Source: an uncultured Synergistales bacterium
GTDB lineage: Bacteria > Synergistota > Synergistia > Synergistales > Aminobacteriaceae
Length of the DNA stretch: 60,068 nucleotides
Direction of reading: 5' to 3'
Assembly: GCA_905234075.1 (NCBI GenBank)
Contig: CAJOGI010000009.1
Location: 1 to 60,068 of the forward strand
Part shown: piece by piece, positions 25,168 through 34,823 of the stretch
How positions within the stretch are numbered: the stretch's first letter is position 1
Layout: each line of letters starts with the position of its first letter
Position numbers and translations under genes: made by a program
Notes under the pieces: model-generated
Databases searched by the model: none
Seen by the model: the letters and a program-made list of their open reading frames with translations, nothing else
What the model was told of the DNA's origin: nothing

Positions 25168-25362
25168 ATGCCGCGAGATTTTTTCATGACGATTACAAAA
25201 TATGAGGACGTTTTTTTCATTGGAAATATTCCCTCACTGCCGGGCTGTCATTCTCAGGGCAGGACGCTTGAAGAACTCAACAGAAATATAAAAGAAGCAA
25301 TAAAACTGTTTGATGAGAGTGAAAGCGTCGAATTTTTAGGACTTCAAAAAATCGCAGTATAA
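25168..25362 (+). CDS. HicB-like antitoxin-fold protein (orphan)
   Basis: A 64-residue single HicB fold: FFMTITKYEDVFFIGNIPSLPGCHSQG, then TLEELNRNIKEAIKLFDE. HicB antitoxins neutralise HicA RNases, but no HicA-type gene is next to it and there is no C-terminal DNA-binding domain. The ATG at 25168 is 9 nt after GAGGTG; an earlier in-frame GTG lies inside that ribosome site. As first gene of the operon it may be a regulator or merely a relic. Confidence 0.75.
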   Translation: MPRDFFMTITKYEDVFFIGNIPSLPGCHSQGRTLEELNRNIKEAIKLFDESESVEFLGLQKIAV

Positions 25363-25418
25363 ATTTCGCTGATATTCGCCGTTAAAAAATTATGAAATTC
25401 ACGAAAGGAAAATTAATC

Positions 25419-26141
25419 ATGCCGGAAAAAAGTTTACCCGATTTAATTATGGAATTGATGAATAAAGACGGGAAACCGTTCATGACCGTTAAGCGTCTGG
25501 CTCTGCTGCTCGGCACGGAAAAAAAACGCGAGCTTGGAATTTTGCATGTTAAGAGCGCGACCGAGATTAAAAATATTATTGAGCCGTTTCTTGAAGATAG
25601 ATTTATTTTTAATAAAAAAGGAACATCGCTTTATATTCTTGTGCCCTGTAAGCCAGAGGATTTAATACTCAAAGAGCTTTCAGCTACAAAAGGAAAAAGT
25701 CCGAAAGCTATCGGGCGTTTAATGCCTTTAACGAAAAAAGACTGCATGAAAATTTTTCTCGATCTTATTGAAAAAGGCTGCATACGTTTGACCTTGAATG
25801 AGATGCTTGAGCCTAGAATTTTTTTGACTGACGTTCCGTGCAATGAAGAACTTCAGCCTCAAACTCAAAAACAAGAAGAAACTCAGTACACTTTGGAAAA
25901 TTTTTATAACGCTTTTAAGTCTCTTGACAATGGCAGAATTTTTGTAAGAATTTGTGATTTACGAAGAGCGTTGAAGTGGCCCCGCGATGTTTTCGACAGC
26001 GGATTAAAACAGCTCCGCGATGCCGGAATTATTCAGCTTCATGTCGGGGACGCTTCATTAATGACCCCAGACGATATAAGAGACAGTTTCGTTGATGAAA
26101 ATCATTTCAGAATGGGAACGGTAACTTGGCATGGCAAATAA
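25419..26141 (+). CDS. Unrecognised protein, probable winged-helix domains
   Basis: 240 residues, no family recognised with confidence. The N-terminal half has a DLIMELMNKDGKPF-type helix and a wing-like beta hairpin. A Gln-rich linker (PQTQKQEETQ, ~residue 157) precedes a compact C-terminal domain with VRICDLRRALKWPRDVFDSG, then LRDAGIIQLHVGD, the layout of a winged helix (inference). It may load or target the ATPase encoded next: the two frames overlap by 11 nt. The ATG at 25419 follows AAAGGA; an upstream in-frame ATG at 25392 lacks a site. Confidence 0.65.
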   Translation: MPEKSLPDLIMELMNKDGKPFMTVKRLALLLGTEKKRELGILHVKSATEIKNIIEPFLEDRFIFNKKGTSLYILVPCKPEDLILKELSATKGKSPKAIGRLMPLTKKDCMKIFLDLIEKGCIRLTLNEMLEPRIFLTDVPCNEELQPQTQKQEETQYTLENFYNAFKSLDNGRIFVRICDLRRALKWPRDVFDSGLKQLRDAGIIQLHVGDASLMTPDDIRDSFVDENHFRMGTVTWHGK

Positions 26142-28125
26142 AAATATTCACGAGCTGCTGCGCGAAAATAATCCTTTTGCTTCGTCAGCGTCGCCGCTTC
26201 CGTGGGATAATAATAATCCTGACCTTTTGCAATTAAGCCGCGAAGCATCAGAAGATATTGCACAGCTTATACTTTACAAGCGAAGAGAACCTTCTGTGCC
26301 TTTGGCAGGGCTCGTGCTTGGCGAGGCAGGCTCAGGAAAGACTCACATGCTCACTAGAATTTTACGGAGATTAAGAAAAGATGCCCGCTCGGCCGTATTC
26401 GTTGCCGTAAAAACTTTCAGAGATCCAGAAATTGCGACACGGCACTTGCTGACAGAAATCTTTATAAGCCTCAAACGTATTCACAGCAGCGGCCACACTC
26501 AATTTGACATGGTAATGAGTGAATTTATGAATTCTTATCAGGAACGCAGGCGTGAGGACGGATTTTCTAACGCCGACATAAACAAAATTGACCCTCGCGT
26601 TTACATTGCCAAGGATATTCCAGGACTTGACAAGAATTTTTTGAAATGCCTTGTAACTTATTTAACTACTGTCGATTCTTTTACTCGAAATGATATTTTA
26701 GACTGGCTGAGCGACGGCCTCGAAGATGATGACTCTTTACGGCTCGGCCTTCCCTCAAGAGATTTGAACTCAATGACAGATGCCCGTCGGGAACAGGAAG
26801 CCGAAAAAGTTTTGACCGCTCTCGGTCTGGTTTTAGCATATGCAAAAGTTCCGATGATCGTCTGTTTTGATCAGCTTGACGCAATGAAAGACCGCGCTTT
26901 AATTTCAGCGTGGGGAAATATAATAAGCCTTCTTATGAATGATTTATCAGGAATTTTGCCGCTGTGCTTCGTCAGGTCTGAAATATGGAACGATATTTTT
27001 GTGCCGGTGCTTGACGACGCTGTAGTGCAACGCTTGCGGAATAACACAATGATAATGAAGACATGTTCGCTTGCTCAGGCCCGTATGTTAATAAAAACAA
27101 AAATCGAAGCGGCCTTCAAAGAAAATCCCGAAGAAGTTTTTCAATGGCTGATTGACAAAATGGGCGGAACTCTACGCGACGGCTACTCGCCCCGGGTTAT
27201 TATTGAGCTTGCTAATCACGCAATAACCGCAACGAAAGAAGTAGAAATAAAAACTCCTGCAGAAACAAGACCGCAGCAATATAACGAGTCTGATATAGAC
27301 AGGGCAATTAAAGGCGCGTACGATGAAGAATATAAAAAAATTCAGGCTGAACCAGAAGCATGGCCGCCGAACTCCGAGCAGCTCGCACTGGCTCTTGAAG
27401 TGTGGCTAAATGCTCACGGTGAGTTTGAATTTTATAAGAGCGAAGTATCAAGCATAAAACTGGCAGGAAAATATCACGATAAAAATTTTGCTTTTATCAT
27501 TACGACAGCAAAAAGTCATTTTGTTGCAACAGCAGGATTGAAACGCGGAATTGATTTCGTTCAGGAAAATCCGCGAAGTTTTTGCTGTTACATAACTGAG
27601 AAAAAAATTCATAAATCTACTTGGAAGATAGCTAATGAAACCTTAAAAAATTTTGAGGACTCCGGCGGTCATTCCGTCATGATCGATTCCGACGAAAGAA
27701 TTAAATGGTACGCTCTGACGGCATTAATAAACCGTATTGACAACGGGGACGTTAATTTATATCTGCCCTCCGGCAGCAGGACGGCAGTACGCGAAGATTT
27801 AACGGGCTTTCTCAAAAATGATGTAAAGCTGATTGATTTTCCGTTTAGCGATGATGTTATTGTTATCAACAATCCTACAGAAGGTCGCGGAATTTCCCTG
27901 CCTACTTTCCTGTCTGATGCTAAAGCTTTGTGCGATATTCTAAGCAAACTTGTAGAAACTTCGCCTATGAGAATGCTCGCGCTTGGCAGAGGAGTTAAAT
28001 TATTGTCGCGGAGCGGAATTAAAATGACTGCTGACGGGCTTGTAGATTTTGTAAAGAATGAACCGATGTTCAAAATTTATAAGCAGGACGACAGCGAGCC
28101 GATTATAAGTTTTTCAAACCGATAG
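26131..28125 (+). CDS. Large AAA-type ATPase (Orc1/Cdc6-like P-loop), operon with Cas4-like nuclease
   Basis: 664 residues. Walker A GEAGSGKT is at 64-71 and Walker B IVCFDQLD at 243-250, with LPLCFVRSEIW at 276-286 as a sensor-1-like strand. The ~190-residue insert between A and B is mostly helical. The C-terminal ~250 residues, after a ~410-430 linker, form another alpha/beta domain (FAFIITTAKSHFVATAGLKRG; SGGHSVMIDSDERIKWY) of unknown type. An FDQLD Walker B occurs in DNA-handling P-loop proteins, so a role in nucleic acid loading is likely but not shown. Coupled to the upstream gene by overlap; the nuclease gene follows after 22 nt. Confidence 0.75.
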   Translation: MANKNIHELLRENNPFASSASPLPWDNNNPDLLQLSREASEDIAQLILYKRREPSVPLAGLVLGEAGSGKTHMLTRILRRLRKDARSAVFVAVKTFRDPEIATRHLLTEIFISLKRIHSSGHTQFDMVMSEFMNSYQERRREDGFSNADINKIDPRVYIAKDIPGLDKNFLKCLVTYLTTVDSFTRNDILDWLSDGLEDDDSLRLGLPSRDLNSMTDARREQEAEKVLTALGLVLAYAKVPMIVCFDQLDAMKDRALISAWGNIISLLMNDLSGILPLCFVRSEIWNDIFVPVLDDAVVQRLRNNTMIMKTCSLAQARMLIKTKIEAAFKENPEEVFQWLIDKMGGTLRDGYSPRVIIELANHAITATKEVEIKTPAETRPQQYNESDIDRAIKGAYDEEYKKIQAEPEAWPPNSEQLALALEVWLNAHGEFEFYKSEVSSIKLAGKYHDKNFAFIITTAKSHFVATAGLKRGIDFVQENPRSFCCYITEKKIHKSTWKIANETLKNFEDSGGHSVMIDSDERIKWYALTALINRIDNGDVNLYLPSGSRTAVREDLTGFLKNDVKLIDFPFSDDVIVINNPTEGRGISLPTFLSDAKALCDILSKLVETSPMRMLALGRGVKLLSRSGIKMTADGLVDFVKNEPMFKIYKQDDSEPIISFSNR

Positions 28126-28147
28126 TAAAAATTAATGATAGATTAAA

Positions 28148-29545
28148 ATGTCCGTAACATGTTACGCTACTGTAAGCGATTTAGCAGTCTGTCAGAGATG
28201 CCCTGCGTTATTCGCGTACATAGTTTATATGAAAAAAAAATCAGCATGGCGGGTAGGCATTCACGGCGGCAAAGAGGCTTACGGTTCAGTTTTTCATAAA
28301 GAAATTTCCGAAAAATTTTTTGAGGCCGCTTCGGACGAGCATAACCCTCTGAATAAAGAAATTTCTGTTGCTGCTTCAAAAGGTGCAGATGTTCTTGAGG
28401 AATTTATGCGGAAAAATATTTTTATGCCGTTCGTTGAGACAAAGTCAAAATATTTTACGTCTGGGCAAATTCTCTCGATAGCTAAGGCTACACAAATATT
28501 TGCTTACAGGATAGCAAAATTTTTGAAAAATTCGCAGCCGGTTTTCATGAAGCCGGAGGGAAAACTTAAAGGCAGTTATTTCTCAGTCGCCCACAACGCG
28601 GAGCTGATAATAACGGGACGCTATGACGCGCTGATTTTTAATAAGGCACTCGGGGAGGCACGTTTATTCGAGTTCAAAGGCTTCAAAAAATCTGATATTA
28701 CTGTTCCGCTGTCGCAAAGTTTAATTTATTCATGGCTTATTGAAAAAACTTCAGGCATAGTTCCATCTGTTGAGATAATATATCTCAACGAAAGCAAGCC
28801 GGAAATTTTTACGTCCGAAGTCGTTCGTGAAATGATTATTTCAGGACTGCCGGGACTTTTTAACTGGGCTTTAGATATAATTTTATTGAGGAGGATGCCC
28901 GAAATGCTTCACGATAAAAATTTATGTGAAAAGTGTAAATTCAGCACGACATGCGAAAAGGACATGCAAAAAATTTTTGCTCCGATCGTTAATAAAAAAA
29001 GGCGCGGAGCTTCGATGCTTAGTCTGCTCGTGTTTTTCTTCGCCGCTGCTATGGTAACGGCGCAGGTGTTTTTCTTTTCTAATATCACCGCCGGATCTGT
29101 GAGGGAAGACCGCGAAATTTTAGGCATTAAGATGGAGCTGGCAAATTTAGTCGAAATAGCGAGAAATACTATAGTGAAAGAAGTGAAAGACAAAAGCAAA
29201 GTTGAAGTCATCGGTACGACGTCTGCAGACTATACAGAAGATGGATTTTTTAAGAAGACAAGACAAGATAAGAAAAATTTTTACGAAACTGCTGATAAAA
29301 AAACTTGTGTAAATGTTCATGATTTGAATTATAAGTTTGAGAATAAGGATAGATTTGACGATAGTGCATTTCTTAAGACTGTAAAAGAGCCTTACAAAAA
29401 AATTTTTCCGCCCATACCCGGCCATTTTTTAATCAGGGCTTACACGGAAGTTTCAGACAAAAGATATTTAATGTTTCAAGTGCTTGTTGACAGCGACGGG
29501 AAAATAAAAACTTACGAAGAAATATGGTACGAGACTGAAAAATGA
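28148..29545 (+). CDS. Cas4/RecB-like nuclease fused to a pilin-like membrane domain
   Basis: 465 residues. Residues ~1-272 are a PD-(D/E)XK nuclease of the Cas4/RecB type: GSVFHKE (His50), GRYDAL (Asp160), LFEFKG (Glu175, Lys177) and QSLIY (Gln190, Tyr194). Cysteines for a 4Fe-4S cluster are at 15/18 and 260, 263, 269. Then KKRRGASMLSLLVFF (283-297) starts a pilin-like hydrophobic helix, followed by a ~150-residue extracytoplasmic domain. The pilin segment has a Gly/Ala cleavage-type site but lacks Glu5. If correct, nuclease and pilin are on opposite membrane faces. The reading frame is continuous. The stop overlaps the next start by 4 nt. Confidence 0.8.
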   Translation: MSVTCYATVSDLAVCQRCPALFAYIVYMKKKSAWRVGIHGGKEAYGSVFHKEISEKFFEAASDEHNPLNKEISVAASKGADVLEEFMRKNIFMPFVETKSKYFTSGQILSIAKATQIFAYRIAKFLKNSQPVFMKPEGKLKGSYFSVAHNAELIITGRYDALIFNKALGEARLFEFKGFKKSDITVPLSQSLIYSWLIEKTSGIVPSVEIIYLNESKPEIFTSEVVREMIISGLPGLFNWALDIILLRRMPEMLHDKNLCEKCKFSTTCEKDMQKIFAPIVNKKRRGASMLSLLVFFFAAAMVTAQVFFFSNITAGSVREDREILGIKMELANLVEIARNTIVKEVKDKSKVEVIGTTSADYTEDGFFKKTRQDKKNFYETADKKTCVNVHDLNYKFENKDRFDDSAFLKTVKEPYKKIFPPIPGHFLIRAYTEVSDKRYLMFQVLVDSDGKIKTYEEIWYETEK

Positions 29546-30945
29546 ACGGCATATTTAGTCTAAAACCTCAGGAAAGTCAATCTGTTTCGGCGGCAATGGC
29601 TATACATGACGAGTTTATATTTTTCATTGAGATTGACGAAGAAAATAAACCAGTAAGAAAAATATCCGTGCCGCTGGCTGAGGGCTGTATAGTCAACGGT
29701 CAGATAAAAAATTTTCCGCTGCTTCAGGCAGGCTTTGAAGAACTCAGAAAAGAGACAGGAAAAATTAACGAGCCTGTAAGCATAGGCCTTCCTGAGGGAG
29801 AAGCGATCATAAGATTTCCGACCTTCCCCGACATGAGCATAGAAGATATTCGCGGAACTTTAGATATTAATTTTTCGGAATATTTTCCGTATCCGAGAAA
29901 CGAGGCCGTTTTTGACGTAATAAAAATAGAAACTCCCAACGATGACCGCAAAGAAGATATTACGGTACTCGTGGCGGCCGCAAAATATCAGACCGTCGAA
30001 AAAATTTTAGAGATCGTGCACAGCGCAGGGATTACGCCGGGCCCCGTCGAGCCTATGAATTTCGCGATGCTCCGGGAAATTTCGGAAGTCCGCGAGGGGC
30101 TTTGCGTTGTTGCCGATCTTCACAATATAATCACGGTTTGGAACGGCTTTGGAATTTTTTTCAGGACTGGCAACAATCAAAACAACGTCCAAGATATTTT
30201 GAATACGATTCAATTTATTGAGACGCAATATAGAAATGTCCGCGTACAGAAAATTATTTTAGCCGGACTAAACTTTCAGCTCTCGTCTGAATCAAATGAC
30301 TCAGGCGTAGAGATTATTAATATCGACGATGAATATTACGCAGCCGAAGGCTTAGCAATGAGGGAAGAGCCGGGATTTACGCCGCTTGACCTGCGCCCTA
30401 TTGAATTTATTGAACTTGAAAAACGGCGTTATTCTTTTAACATCAACAGGCTTATTTTATGGGGGCTTATTGTAAGTTTCTTAATGCTTTCGATCGGCAC
30501 AATATCATTTACAATTTCATGTATAAGAGACTTGAGCGAGAAAATTGAAATTGTCCGCAACAGTGTCTCGGATTTAACGCCGGAGCGCGACTCAATCATC
30601 AGACAAAACACGGAGCTGGAACGAAAAAACGCTCAGGCCGAAAAAATTATGAATTTTCTTCAGCAGGATATACCGGTCTTGGAAATTATGCAGGAGCTTG
30701 AAATTAATTCTGGACACGGTGTGAAGTTCGACACGGCTGATTTTTCTAAAACAGCTTTGACGGGTGTTACTGTTGCCCTTGACGGAAAAGCGGAGGACGA
30801 GAGCGCAGTTATAGCCATGACGGAAGGATTAAAGAACGGGGGAAAATTCAGCGACGTTATGCTGCCGGTATCTCAAAGAGATCAGACGGGCCGGGTTATT
30901 TTCAAACTTATATTAAAAATGGGAGATGAAAAAAATGAAAATTAG
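29542..30945 (+). CDS. PilM-PilN fusion, type IV pilus / secretion inner-membrane platform (GspL-like)
   Basis: 467 residues. Residues ~1-280 form a PilM-like actin-fold cytoplasmic domain (SIGLPEGEAIIRFP; EVREGLCVVADLHN). DLRPIEFIELEKRR (~283-296) is the PilN-type start, then one membrane helix (ILWGLIVSFLMLSIGTISF), a coiled coil (~335-375) and a periplasmic ferredoxin-like end. PilM and PilN are separate in most pilus systems; here they form one chain, as in GspL. It starts in an ATGA overlap with the nuclease-pilin gene and ends overlapping the prepilin gene. Confidence 0.8.
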   Translation: MNGIFSLKPQESQSVSAAMAIHDEFIFFIEIDEENKPVRKISVPLAEGCIVNGQIKNFPLLQAGFEELRKETGKINEPVSIGLPEGEAIIRFPTFPDMSIEDIRGTLDINFSEYFPYPRNEAVFDVIKIETPNDDRKEDITVLVAAAKYQTVEKILEIVHSAGITPGPVEPMNFAMLREISEVREGLCVVADLHNIITVWNGFGIFFRTGNNQNNVQDILNTIQFIETQYRNVRVQKIILAGLNFQLSSESNDSGVEIINIDDEYYAAEGLAMREEPGFTPLDLRPIEFIELEKRRYSFNINRLILWGLIVSFLMLSIGTISFTISCIRDLSEKIEIVRNSVSDLTPERDSIIRQNTELERKNAQAEKIMNFLQQDIPVLEIMQELEINSGHGVKFDTADFSKTALTGVTVALDGKAEDESAVIAMTEGLKNGGKFSDVMLPVSQRDQTGRVIFKLILKMGDEKNEN

Positions 30946-31426
30946 GCGCGGTTTTTCGTTAATCGAGCTTTCTATATGCGTTGTCATAATCTTTATTTTA
31001 GCTTCAACTATTGCGGTAAACATTAATTCTTATGAGCAGACCGCCAAGCAGGAAGCCGAAAAATTAGAGGCTTATATTCATGACTTGATGCGGAAGGCCG
31101 ACAGAAGTCATCAAGCCTTCGAGCTAAACCTTGAGTCCAATATGATACGGTGGCAATGGTCAAACAATAAAACTACTTGGAAAGACGCAACTGACGGAAT
31201 TTTAATTTATAAAAAGAATCCCACTGACAAAGAAAAGCCGATAATCAGTCCGGGCTTTACTGTAAATCATAATTTCAAGAATGACATCCTTACTTATCAA
31301 ACTACCAAACAGTTCAGTAATAACGGACACTTTACGATTACACGCGACGACGATATGACTAAATATTATGTGTATATCCGACTCGGAAGAGTGCGTCTTG
31401 CAGAGAAAGAATACCCCGACGAATAA
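30935..31426 (+). CDS. Type IV prepilin-like protein
   Basis: 163 residues. MKIRRG precedes the cleavage site of a prepilin peptidase, then FSLIELSICVVIIF with Glu at +5, followed by a hydrophobic helix and a ~125-residue globular part rich in Asn/Lys/Thr. It is a minor pilin or pseudopilin. The ATG at 30935 is 9 nt after GGGAG; the ATG at 30926 overlaps that site. Prepilin peptidase, PilB/T, PilC and PilQ genes are not in the window. Confidence 0.85.
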   Translation: MKIRRGFSLIELSICVVIIFILASTIAVNINSYEQTAKQEAEKLEAYIHDLMRKADRSHQAFELNLESNMIRWQWSNNKTTWKDATDGILIYKKNPTDKEKPIISPGFTVNHNFKNDILTYQTTKQFSNNGHFTITRDDDMTKYYVYIRLGRVRLAEKEYPDE

Positions 31427-31464: not shown

Positions 31465-31495
31465 TATCCTAAAAATAAATCAGGAAGTGCTAAAC

Positions 31496-32608
31496 TTGCA
31501 AAAACAATCACGCGCACAAAAATTTCAGCCTAAGCAACGCCGTAAAAAACGGAGTCGTAGATTTTTTATTTACGGAATAATTTTATTTTTTTTCCTGCTG
31601 GCTATTTCTGCGGCGGGCTATGCGTCTTATTATCTCAAAGTGCCTTCGGAATTATGGGAGGATTTAATCCCGATCCCTGAGGGCAATAAAGTCAACGTCT
31701 CAATAGAAAGCGGAATGACGGCCTCTCAAGCTGCACGCGCTTTTGAAATTCAGGGCGCACTCGAAAAGGGAACGCCCGTCCAGCTTGCCCGGTGGTTCGT
31801 GAAATTCGGGATTGATAAAAAAATCCGCGCCGGTCATTACAGCGTAGTGCCGTCGGACGCATGGAACTTGGCCCGGCAATTAAGAACAATGAAGCCGGCG
31901 TTACTGAAAGCGCAGATTTTACCCGGCATTGATATTTTTACGCTTATTGATTCACTTGAAGAACAAGATGAAAAAATTTCACGTAAAAATTTTTGCGAGG
32001 CCCTTTTACGAGATGATAACTATCCGCCCGAAATGCGCAATATTCTCGCAGAACTTCCCGATGATGAATATACGCGCTACACTTTTTTGATGCCGGAAAC
32101 TTATATGCTTATTAACAGAACAGCCGACGAGCTCGTGAACGCTTCGGCTTCAGCATGGTGGAGACACTGGGGAGAATTTATAGGCTCTCATGAATTTACT
32201 GCAAAAGAACTTCAAGATGCGTCTATAATAGCTTCAATGATTGAGCGTGAAGTTATGCACGACACTGAATGCCGAACGGTCTCCGGGATAATTCAGAACA
32301 GAATGAAAAAAAATATGCTTCTTCAGATTGACGCGACTGTAGTTTATGCGTGGCGGCTGAAGGGCAGAAAATTAACTCGGGTTTTGAACAAAGATTTAGA
32401 AATTGAATCGCCGTATAACACGTATAGGGTTACGGGACTTCCGCCGCGTCCGATATGCCTGCCTGGCATCGAAGCGTGGGGCTCTGCGCTTGACCCCGAG
32501 AAAAATGATTTTTATTATTACGTTGCCGGTAAAGACGGCTATCATTATTTTGCAAAGACATATAAGGAACACCTGCAGAATATAAGGCAGGCGCGTTCAG
32601 AAAAATAG
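31496..32608 (+). CDS. mltG: Endolytic murein transglycosylase MltG (YceG)
   Basis: About 370 residues. One N-terminal membrane anchor (FFIYGIILFFFLLAISAAGYASYY), a LysM-like part, then the YceG catalytic domain with ASMIEREV (catalytic Glu), QIDATVVYAW and SPYNTYRVTGLPPRPICLPG. It cuts nascent glycan strands and fixes their length. TTG at 31496, 8 nt after AGGAAG, fits better than the GTG at 31487 that overlaps that site. Confidence 0.93.
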   Translation: MQKQSRAQKFQPKQRRKKRSRRFFIYGIILFFFLLAISAAGYASYYLKVPSELWEDLIPIPEGNKVNVSIESGMTASQAARAFEIQGALEKGTPVQLARWFVKFGIDKKIRAGHYSVVPSDAWNLARQLRTMKPALLKAQILPGIDIFTLIDSLEEQDEKISRKNFCEALLRDDNYPPEMRNILAELPDDEYTRYTFLMPETYMLINRTADELVNASASAWWRHWGEFIGSHEFTAKELQDASIIASMIEREVMHDTECRTVSGIIQNRMKKNMLLQIDATVVYAWRLKGRKLTRVLNKDLEIESPYNTYRVTGLPPRPICLPGIEAWGSALDPEKNDFYYYVAGKDGYHYFAKTYKEHLQNIRQARSEK

Positions 32609-32624
32609 AGGAGTGGAAAAACAT

Positions 32625-34823
32625 TTGAGCCGCAGACGAAACATACAGAATATAAACGCAAGGGGAGCAGTTTTATTTATACTCGTAATATTATGCCTGT
32701 ATTTTATTCTCGCGCTGTTCGGATTTTCATTGACGGGCAGCAGCGGGCGCGAGTGGGGCATATATTTACGCACGGCATGGGGCGGAGCGGTCTTGCTGCC
32801 GTTATTATTCTGGCTTTATCTGTGTATCGCCAGGCTCCTAAAATTCAAAGTGCCTAATCTTCCCCGACAGATACTCGGAACTTTACAGCTTTATGTTTCG
32901 TTTGCATTTATGCTCGGACTTCTGCGCGAGACGGGCTGGAACTCTGAATTAACTTTATTTGCGCCCGGAAATTTCGGACAGGCCCTCGCTCATTTTTTTG
33001 TCTTAAATCTCGGAATTTTTATAACGCTGCTGCTTGTAATAGTTTCGTTCATTCTGTCGGCTTTTTTCTTCGGCTTAAAAATTCTCCGCGTGCCTTTTCC
33101 TGAGCTGTTCAGTAAATCGGCTCAAGCTCCCGAAGTTCCCCAGACGCGCCGCCGCAGGAAAACTTATGAGGCTGTCGAGCGTCAATACCCTGAAGACAGG
33201 CCGGAAAATATTTTATTCATGAAAGATTTACCGACATCGCGATTAAAATTTGACGATGAGGACACCGCGCAAATTTCAATAACGGGGCCGATGCCTGATG
33301 ATTTTCCTGCACCGAAATTAAAACCTGCTCCGCCGGAAAATAAAAATGAATTTGATTTTGAGGAAGATATAGAAAATTACACTGACGAAGATCTTTACAG
33401 CGAAAATGTAAATAAGAATGTTCCGTCGGCTCAAAAAGAAAATAAAAACGAAAAAGAAAGCTACGCCGTAGAAATAATTGACAGCCTCTTGGCCTCGATT
33501 GACGCAGGAGCTTTATCAATGCCTGAGAAAAAACGTCAGACCGCTTCAGAACGCAGCACCCCGCGAAGAAACAGGCGGCCTCTTCCGGTCGTAATATTTG
33601 ACGACGGAGCGTCTGACAGCGAGCCTAAAGAAATGTCCTTTGGCACGAACAACTCTTCAGAAAATTCAGGCTTCCCTCCTCCTATGGAACTTTTCGGACC
33701 TGCTCCGAGTTTTGAACTTCCGGGAACAGGCTCAAAAAATTTCGACAAAGTTTCAAAAACTATAATCTCAACTCTGAAAAATTTTGGAATAGACGCTTCA
33801 GTGGCTGATATATTATCCGGCCCGTCAGTAACGCAGTTTTTAATCGAGCTTGCTCCAGGAATGAAAGTCAACAAAGTTGCCGGGCTTGCCGACGATTTAG
33901 CGATGGCTCTTTCAGCCGTGTCCGTCAGACTTGAGGCACCCATACCCGGAACACGTTACGTAGGCATAGAAATTCCAAACGCTGAACGGAAAAAAATTAC
34001 TCTTAGGAGCGTTTTCGAGTCCGAAGAATTTCAAGCTAACTCTTCGCGGCTTCCGATACCTTTAGGAATTAAATTTGACGGAAAATTTTTAGTCAAGGGG
34101 CTTGAAAGTATGCCTCACTTGCTCGTCGCCGGAGGAAAAGACTCAGGGAAAAATACTTTTCTCAACACTTCCATATTAAGCATATGTTCGCAGAGAAAAC
34201 CTGACGAGCTCGCTTTAATTCTCATTGATCCTCGACATGTTGAATTTGCTTTGTATAACGGACTGCCGCATTTATTGACTCCGCCGATTTTCACGTATGA
34301 CGAGGCACTGAAGGCTCTGCAATTAATTTTTGAGGAAATGGAGTCTCGCACGGCAAATTTCGTAAAGGCTAGAGTCAGAACTTTATCGGCTTACAACAGA
34401 AAACTTCAAAAGAAAGACCGCCTGCCGGAAATTGTTATAGTCATCAATGAACTTTCGGACTTAATGTATCAGGCCGGAAATGAAAATGAAAACGAATTTG
34501 AAGATTTAATCGTCAGGCTTGCTCAAAAATCTGCGGTTGCCGGAATTTACATGATAATAGCTTCTCAAAAACCGTCAGCTGATGTCGTAACGACGTTAAT
34601 CCGCTCAAACATTTCTGCGCGTGCTGCGTTTAGTCTTGCGTCCGGGACAGAGTCAAAAAATATGATAGGCATCACCGACGCAGAGAAGCTCACGGGAAAA
34701 GGCGATATGCTCTTCAAAGATAGCGAAGCTCCAGGAATTTTTAGGCTTCAGGCTCCGTATATAAACGGCGAAAAAGTTTCAAACTTCGTTGAATATTTAG
34801 AGAGAGCGTTGAAAAAAAATTAG
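32625..34823 (+). CDS. ftsK: FtsK/SpoIIIE-like DNA translocase with degenerate nucleotide-binding motifs
   Basis: About 732 residues. Four N-terminal membrane segments (to ~residue 150), a Pro/Glu-rich linker, then the alpha and RecA-like beta parts. Family marks are IDPRHVEFALYNGLPHLLTPP, RLAQKSAVAGIYMIIASQKPS and EKLTGKGDML. Walker A reads GGKDSGKN, with Asn for the Ser/Thr, and the Walker B strand reads VIVINEL, with Asn for the Asp of the usual DEL. The C-terminal gamma (KOPS-reading) domain is absent. It may be a structural or weakened translocase. The start is probably TTG at 32625, after AGAGGAG; a GTG at 32613 overlaps that site. Confidence 0.82.
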   Translation: MSRRRNIQNINARGAVLFILVILCLYFILALFGFSLTGSSGREWGIYLRTAWGGAVLLPLLFWLYLCIARLLKFKVPNLPRQILGTLQLYVSFAFMLGLLRETGWNSELTLFAPGNFGQALAHFFVLNLGIFITLLLVIVSFILSAFFFGLKILRVPFPELFSKSAQAPEVPQTRRRRKTYEAVERQYPEDRPENILFMKDLPTSRLKFDDEDTAQISITGPMPDDFPAPKLKPAPPENKNEFDFEEDIENYTDEDLYSENVNKNVPSAQKENKNEKESYAVEIIDSLLASIDAGALSMPEKKRQTASERSTPRRNRRPLPVVIFDDGASDSEPKEMSFGTNNSSENSGFPPPMELFGPAPSFELPGTGSKNFDKVSKTIISTLKNFGIDASVADILSGPSVTQFLIELAPGMKVNKVAGLADDLAMALSAVSVRLEAPIPGTRYVGIEIPNAERKKITLRSVFESEEFQANSSRLPIPLGIKFDGKFLVKGLESMPHLLVAGGKDSGKNTFLNTSILSICSQRKPDELALILIDPRHVEFALYNGLPHLLTPPIFTYDEALKALQLIFEEMESRTANFVKARVRTLSAYNRKLQKKDRLPEIVIVINELSDLMYQAGNENENEFEDLIVRLAQKSAVAGIYMIIASQKPSADVVTTLIRSNISARAAFSLASGTESKNMIGITDAEKLTGKGDMLFKDSEAPGIFRLQAPYINGEKVSNFVEYLERALKKN

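Follow-up and report, generated by a model that had tools for sequence, protein, structure and literature searches.

Within the 60,068 nucleotides analysed here (referred to as the window, from an uncultured Synergistales bacterium), a cassette coding for a winged-helix (wHTH) protein, an ATPase and a Cas4-like nuclease lies directly upstream of type IV pilus genes. Our tentative reading, which stops somewhat short of probable, is that this is a motorless DNA-degradation module of the capture type that has been rewired to the type IV pilus at the place of DNA entry; judging from gene content, it would probably police or process transformation DNA. A first-pass annotation of the same DNA had seen here a DNA-processing module joined to a pilus platform. 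The union of the two in one operon is borne out, and it is conserved in the window's genus, g1, a group of gut Synergistaceae. The notion that the module is intrinsically a pilus machine finds no support, since sister genera encode it at a distance from their pilus genes and its nuclease there usually carries an FtsK motor instead.

All six open reading frames (ORFs) described earlier are present, in one direction and in the order HicB-like protein, wHTH protein, ATPase, nuclease-pilin fusion, PilM-PilN fusion and prepilin. The reported gaps of +56, -11, +22, -4 and -11 nt are reproduced with starts at ATG 25168 for hicB, ATG 25419 for the wHTH gene and ATG 30935 for the prepilin gene, and a start equivalent to 25419 is also used by most relatives (alignment A2). 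From the wHTH gene to the prepilin gene, neighbours abut or overlap. The limits of the operon, in turn, had been misplaced. The HicB/UPF0150-like ORF (25168..25362, forward strand; Pfam HicB_lk_antitox, E=2e-6) is incidental: of the g1 loci, just the window, G068 and G091 have it and the closest relative, G147, does not, while at the other end the co-directional block normally runs on into mltG (+60 nt) and then ftsK (+4 nt). This orphan ORF has few counterparts in relatives and no recognised HicA partner; toxin-antitoxin control of the operon by HicB was rejected on account of its lack of conservation. The single promoter previously recognised before hicB carries no information, and promoter and terminator scanning was discarded as evidence for a single transcript, as the 22 promoter-like sites are at chance level (21.2 in shuffled sequences).

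Domains were assigned from Pfam, PADLOC and NCBIfam scans of the window proteins. The wHTH protein (25419..26141, forward strand; 240 aa) appears to contain two or more wHTH-like regions, an assignment that is based on alignment A2 and on weak matches to winged-helix and MarR structures; no Pfam family scored above the cut-off. Its C-terminal region, FVRICDLRRxLxWPRExFD...LRDxxxIQLH, is kept across relatives (A2). The next gene (26131..28125, forward strand) encodes an AAA ATPase, called AAA_16/KAP by the family scan and assigned to the ORC/Cdc6-STAND type by its Walker A motif, its fold match and an AlphaFold model (pLDDT 84.9). The Walker A motif is intact and, like a CFD motif, invariant among the aligned relatives; the top Foldseek matches are Cdc6/ORC chains and RADAR RdrA. 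In the model, built as the other structure models here from a shallow alignment, the AAA domain is followed by an alpha-beta domain with REase-like strand order and a C-terminal winged-helix-like region. Judged by secondary structure only, the former (about residues 415-545) runs alpha-beta-beta-beta-alpha-beta and has no conserved ExK, and the latter spans residues 597-661; both the count of wHTH domains and the assignment of an inactive REase have this same basis.

The third gene of the cassette starts with a predicted Cas4/AddB-type PD-(D/E)XK nuclease domain (28148..29008, forward strand; residues 1-287 of the fusion). PADLOC calls it Cas4 (E=2e-9), and the predicted structure matches the Cas4 proteins ACE1 and SSO0001 as well as Dna2 and AddAB. 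The match to the NCBIfam cas4 model lies below the equivalog cut-off, so the nuclease is not regarded as a CRISPR Cas4. In the alignment, H50, D160, E175, K177, Q190 and Y194 are invariant or nearly so, as are the four Fe-S cysteines C18, C260, C263 and C269. The domain has the RecB-like PD-(D/E)XK core with Fe-S cysteines that marks the Cas4 family, and the cassette carries an active-looking nuclease of the REase fold.

The fusion of this nuclease to a pilin, proposed earlier, is genuine: in the window the two form a single ORF. A prepilin-peptidase-like motif, KKRRG↓AS, is found at Gly287 (28994..29014, forward strand; alignments A4 and A5) and leads into a minor-pilin-like domain (29009..29545, forward strand) with a long hydrophobic helix and then a predicted four-stranded sheet. 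The basic-Gly leader followed by a hydrophobic helix, KKRRG↓ASMLSLLVFFFAAA, is a type IV prepilin feature. The model of the fusion (m81cf2f868a97) comprises a nuclease domain, a long helix (290-348) and four strands. The pilin half gave no match among solved structures, and it aligns with the free pilin of sister genera with an hhalign probability of 97.3 (A5/A6, E=2.6e-11). R285 and G287 are invariant in 17 aligned fused proteins (A4), and the same two residues in 12 of 12 fused and free pilins (A5); two fused copies, L053 (RKRKA) and L043 (RRRAS), depart from the prepilin motif and miss the canonical Gly. Nuclease and pilin are one ORF in about 19 of 29 g1 genomes and separate adjoining ORFs in the other 10. 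On the ATPase tree the fused or split state changes seven times, at least four of them on well-supported branches. In view of these repeated conversions, the nuclease may be freed by cleavage at the signal that the pilin itself carries; such changes are to be expected if processing makes both forms equivalent. An internal start yielding a separate pilin was also considered and is not general, as 7 of 17 fused ORFs have no ATG, GTG or TTG between the last cysteine and the junction Gly. In genus g17, the pilin before pilM (L131:5843-6844) has a long N-terminal extension of about 150 aa, again an added domain in front of this pilin, although in this case no nuclease.

Downstream, the PilM-PilN fusion (29542..30945, forward strand; PilM_2 E=1.2e-12, weak PilN) has a GspL-like arrangement and is the sole PilM match in the genome. 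It is followed by a GspH-like prepilin (30935..31426, forward strand; N_methyl, GspH E=1.3e-7). In addition, single-family searches of the genome find ATPases resembling PilB and PilT, a PilQ-like secretin, ComEC and a single prepilin peptidase. Other bacteria pull in DNA with type IV pilus machinery, and the presence of these genes makes a role in DNA uptake possible; no competence gene was seen adjoining the operon.

MltG (YceG; 31487..32608, forward strand; Pfam YceG E=1.7e-57) is encoded 60 nt further on, a position after the pilus genes that is kept in most of the genus. The next gene (32613..34823, forward strand) encodes the only full-length FtsK-family match of the genome; according to family match and motif comparison, it has no gamma domain and its Walker motifs are degenerate. 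The C-terminal gamma domain is gone in all full-length g1 copies examined, and in nearly all copies Walker A (K to R/L, or S to N) and/or Walker B (D to N/S) is altered; G014 retains both motifs. The FtsK of sister genera is mostly intact (957-979 aa). From these sequences, chromosome translocation by FtsK may have been lost in the window's organism. The protein was ruled out as a displaced motor of the module: its place after mltG and its orthologues in sister genera identify it as the housekeeping copy, in degenerate form.

The ATPase occurs in 49 of 151 Synergistota genomes and the nuclease query in 44, all within the window's family; most of the genomes compared are metagenome assemblies. 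In g1, 34 of 38 genomes have the ATPase, a short fragment in G036 being excluded from this count. The order wHTH-ATPase-nuclease-(pilin)-PilMN, in one direction, is found in 25 of 26 informative g1 contigs, the window included, among which are partial ones (G074 begins inside the ATPase gene; G120 and G149 end inside PilMN). Protein identity across the conserved loci is 41-92%, and an order kept over such a range goes beyond a chance arrangement. The exception is G054, in which nuclease and pilin are together and PilMN is elsewhere; nuclease and pilin adjoin in every g1 genome where both are readable. Most loci run into mltG-ftsK; in the part of G094 and G044 that could be read, this continuation is missing. 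Two genomes, G036 and G123, have the PilMN-GspH genes without the cassette, and G036 has the pilin as well.

Outside g1, the arrangement is different. The first-pass annotation had staked the link between both gene sets on their adjacency in relatives, and they prove to be adjacent within g1 and separate beyond it. In sister genera the cassette occupies other sites, and the nuclease usually continues in the same protein into an FtsK-alpha domain and an FtsK motor, whose best PADLOC score is for SspH (E about 1e-57); in g3 and g7 the nuclease is free. These genera encode a pilin akin to the one in the window's fusion just upstream of pilM, and mltG-ftsK come after other genes. In the complete genome of Fretibacterium fastidiosum, about 60 kb separate pilin-PilM from the module. 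In this species ATPase and FtsK motor form one protein of 1099 aa (L101:6006-9305) in which no nuclease domain was recognised, and the planctomycete proteins L205 and L207 resemble it. No clear defence islands surround the sister-genus cassettes, the neighbours sampled being housekeeping genes.

More distant relatives of the module exist in Planctomycetes, as wHTH-ATPase-Cas4/FtsK (the three-gene form in L202 and L203) or ATPase-FtsK, and in Cyanobacteria, in which wHTH and ATPase genes are accompanied by a DUF1802 protein as third gene, some with an Mrr-like nuclease domain. In neither phylum were pilus genes seen beside them. The cyanobacterial operons L210-L234 (for example L215:7223-11430) constitute a related, uncharacterised system whose nuclease is of another kind. 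A wHTH-ATPase-Cas4/FtsK cassette is also present on a plasmid of Pseudanabaena PCC 7367 (L236), which gave the one full-length Cas4-FtsK match in the plasmid search; the same search with the ATPase gave no match, and no ATPase relative was confirmed among viral contigs. L236 is a conjugative plasmid, and its cassette adjoins genes for an SNF2 helicase (ZorD/DpdE-like in PADLOC) and a SWIM zinc-finger protein. The simplest history, we infer, is that as g1 evolved the cassette joined first a pilin and later PilMN-GspH and mltG-ftsK, with loss of its motor.

Taken together, the wHTH-ATPase-nuclease cassette may well derive from an anti-invader system of the ORC/Cdc6-type HerA/FtsK capture kind. 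In g1 the FtsK part would have been lost and the cassette would have been placed immediately before the genes for a type IV minor pilin and PilMN, with the consequence that production of nuclease and pilin is coupled, usually in one chain. The wHTH protein and the ATPase might detect or bind foreign DNA and then allow the nuclease to act, and the pilin half might anchor the nuclease at the inner membrane, on its cytoplasmic face and at the pilus or competence site, where incoming DNA would be degraded or trimmed. Prepilin peptidase would probably cut after Gly287 and thereby part the nuclease from the pilin. Gene order, fusion, conserved active-site residues, kinship with the sister-genus modules and the missing motor are seen directly; the position at the membrane, the cleavage, the substrate and the role are proposals built on them. 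A bolder form of this scheme is rather unlikely: the entire Cas4-like nuclease would be a type IV prepilin's leader peptide, released to the cytoplasm by prepilin peptidase, and this release would be coupled to pilus biogenesis or DNA uptake, incoming DNA being checked at the gate.

Several observations speak against the preferred reading. The cassette occupies a single fixed site and 34 of 38 g1 genomes have its ATPase, an unusual stability for a defence system. The lack of clear defence islands in sister genera, the missing FtsK motor, the pilin half without a match to a solved structure, the motif departures in L053 and L043, and the retention of PilMN in G036 and G123 without the cassette count against it as well. 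In an alternative explanation, doubtful in our estimation, an independent defence cassette was inserted before a pilin-PilMN operon and merely shares its transcript, fusion and splitting at the junction being neutral as the peptidase separates the products. The absence of adjacent pilus genes outside g1, the repeated flips of the fusion state and the pilus genes without cassette in G036 and G123 are in agreement with it. Mere insertion is at odds, however, with a nuclease-pilin adjacency that persists across g1 members diverged to about 41-50% identity, with the pilin staying by the nuclease in G054 although PilMN is elsewhere, and with the FtsK motor missing in the very genus where the cassette joined the pilus.

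It is improbable, on the other hand, that the module promotes transformation, nuclease and ATPase processing pilus-imported DNA for recombination rather than for destruction. The pilus and ComEC genes in the same genome would fit, as would the fold match to the recombination nucleases AddAB and Dna2 and the near-universal occurrence in g1, which is more that of a core function than of patchy defence; but ComEC is also found in the cassette-less G036 and G123, the architecture in sister genera is suggestive of capture systems with a DNA motor, and no competence gene was seen beside the operon. Hardly credible is a role in chromosome maintenance, with the module standing in for the degenerate single-copy FtsK motor and working alongside MltG and FtsK where the cell divides: the operon does usually continue into mltG-ftsK, and in nearly all g1 members examined FtsK has neither a gamma domain nor intact Walker motifs, but FtsK is equally degenerate in G036, which has no module, and sister genera have the module alongside an intact FtsK.

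If the preferred reading of a capture-type module at the DNA-uptake pilus is true, it would be the first example of such an arrangement according to the searches made here, and defence and transformation would be physically linked. Capture-type modules may then be able to swap their DNA motor for another cellular machine. The fusion protein, with its putative internal prepilin-peptidase site, is directly testable.

The nearest known counterparts are the "HerA/FtsK capture" defence systems predicted by Rakesh, Aravind and Krishnan in 2024 (PMC10853773). Their operons combine an Orc/Cdc6 ATPase with an inactive REase between AAA and wHTH, an active REase, HerA/FtsK with FtsK-alpha, and multi-wHTH proteins; Cas4 is unmentioned in that paper. 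The predicted make-up of the sister-type, presumably ancestral cassette (ORC/Cdc6-type ATPase, wHTH partner and Cas4-FtsK) matches these systems. The window shares with them the ORC/Cdc6-like AAA ATPase of the ORC/Cdc6 clade, an alpha-beta domain modelled before a C-terminal winged-helix-like region, a separate wHTH-like protein and an active-looking nuclease, whereas an FtsK-alpha domain and FtsK motor fused to the nuclease are shared in sister genera only. The window cassette lacks the HerA/FtsK translocase, their defining feature, and is therefore not classed as a full member; in addition its nuclease is Cas4/AddB-like and tied to a type IV pilin and PilMN. With SspFGH/DndFGH, there is a common logic of ATPase, DNA translocase and nuclease, and the sister-genus motor scores best against SspH in PADLOC. 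The window cassette differs in having no motor, its proteins gave no match to the SspF, SspG, DptF/DptG or Dnd families in PADLOC and NCBIfam, and no phosphorothioation genes were recognised beside the module.

Fold and Fe-S cysteines are shared with solo Cas4 proteins, among them the Argonaute-associated ACE1, and with the Cas4-like nuclease of Synechococcus elongatus. The window nuclease differs in having no Argonaute neighbour, in its fusion to a pilin and in its operon with ATPase and wHTH genes. The S. elongatus nuclease restricts both natural transformation and foreign plasmids (PMC7125226, PMC10653904), which by analogy only would favour action at the entry gate. Among open PMC papers, nothing on Cas4 with a prepilin or on DUF1802 describes the present system. 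Finally, the canonical type IV pilus cluster of Synergistota, pilMNOQ, offers a counterpart to the pilin half: in sister genera a related pilin gene directly precedes pilM. The arrangement described here differs in that PilM and PilN are fused, the cluster is broken up and a nuclease stands before the pilin or is fused to it.
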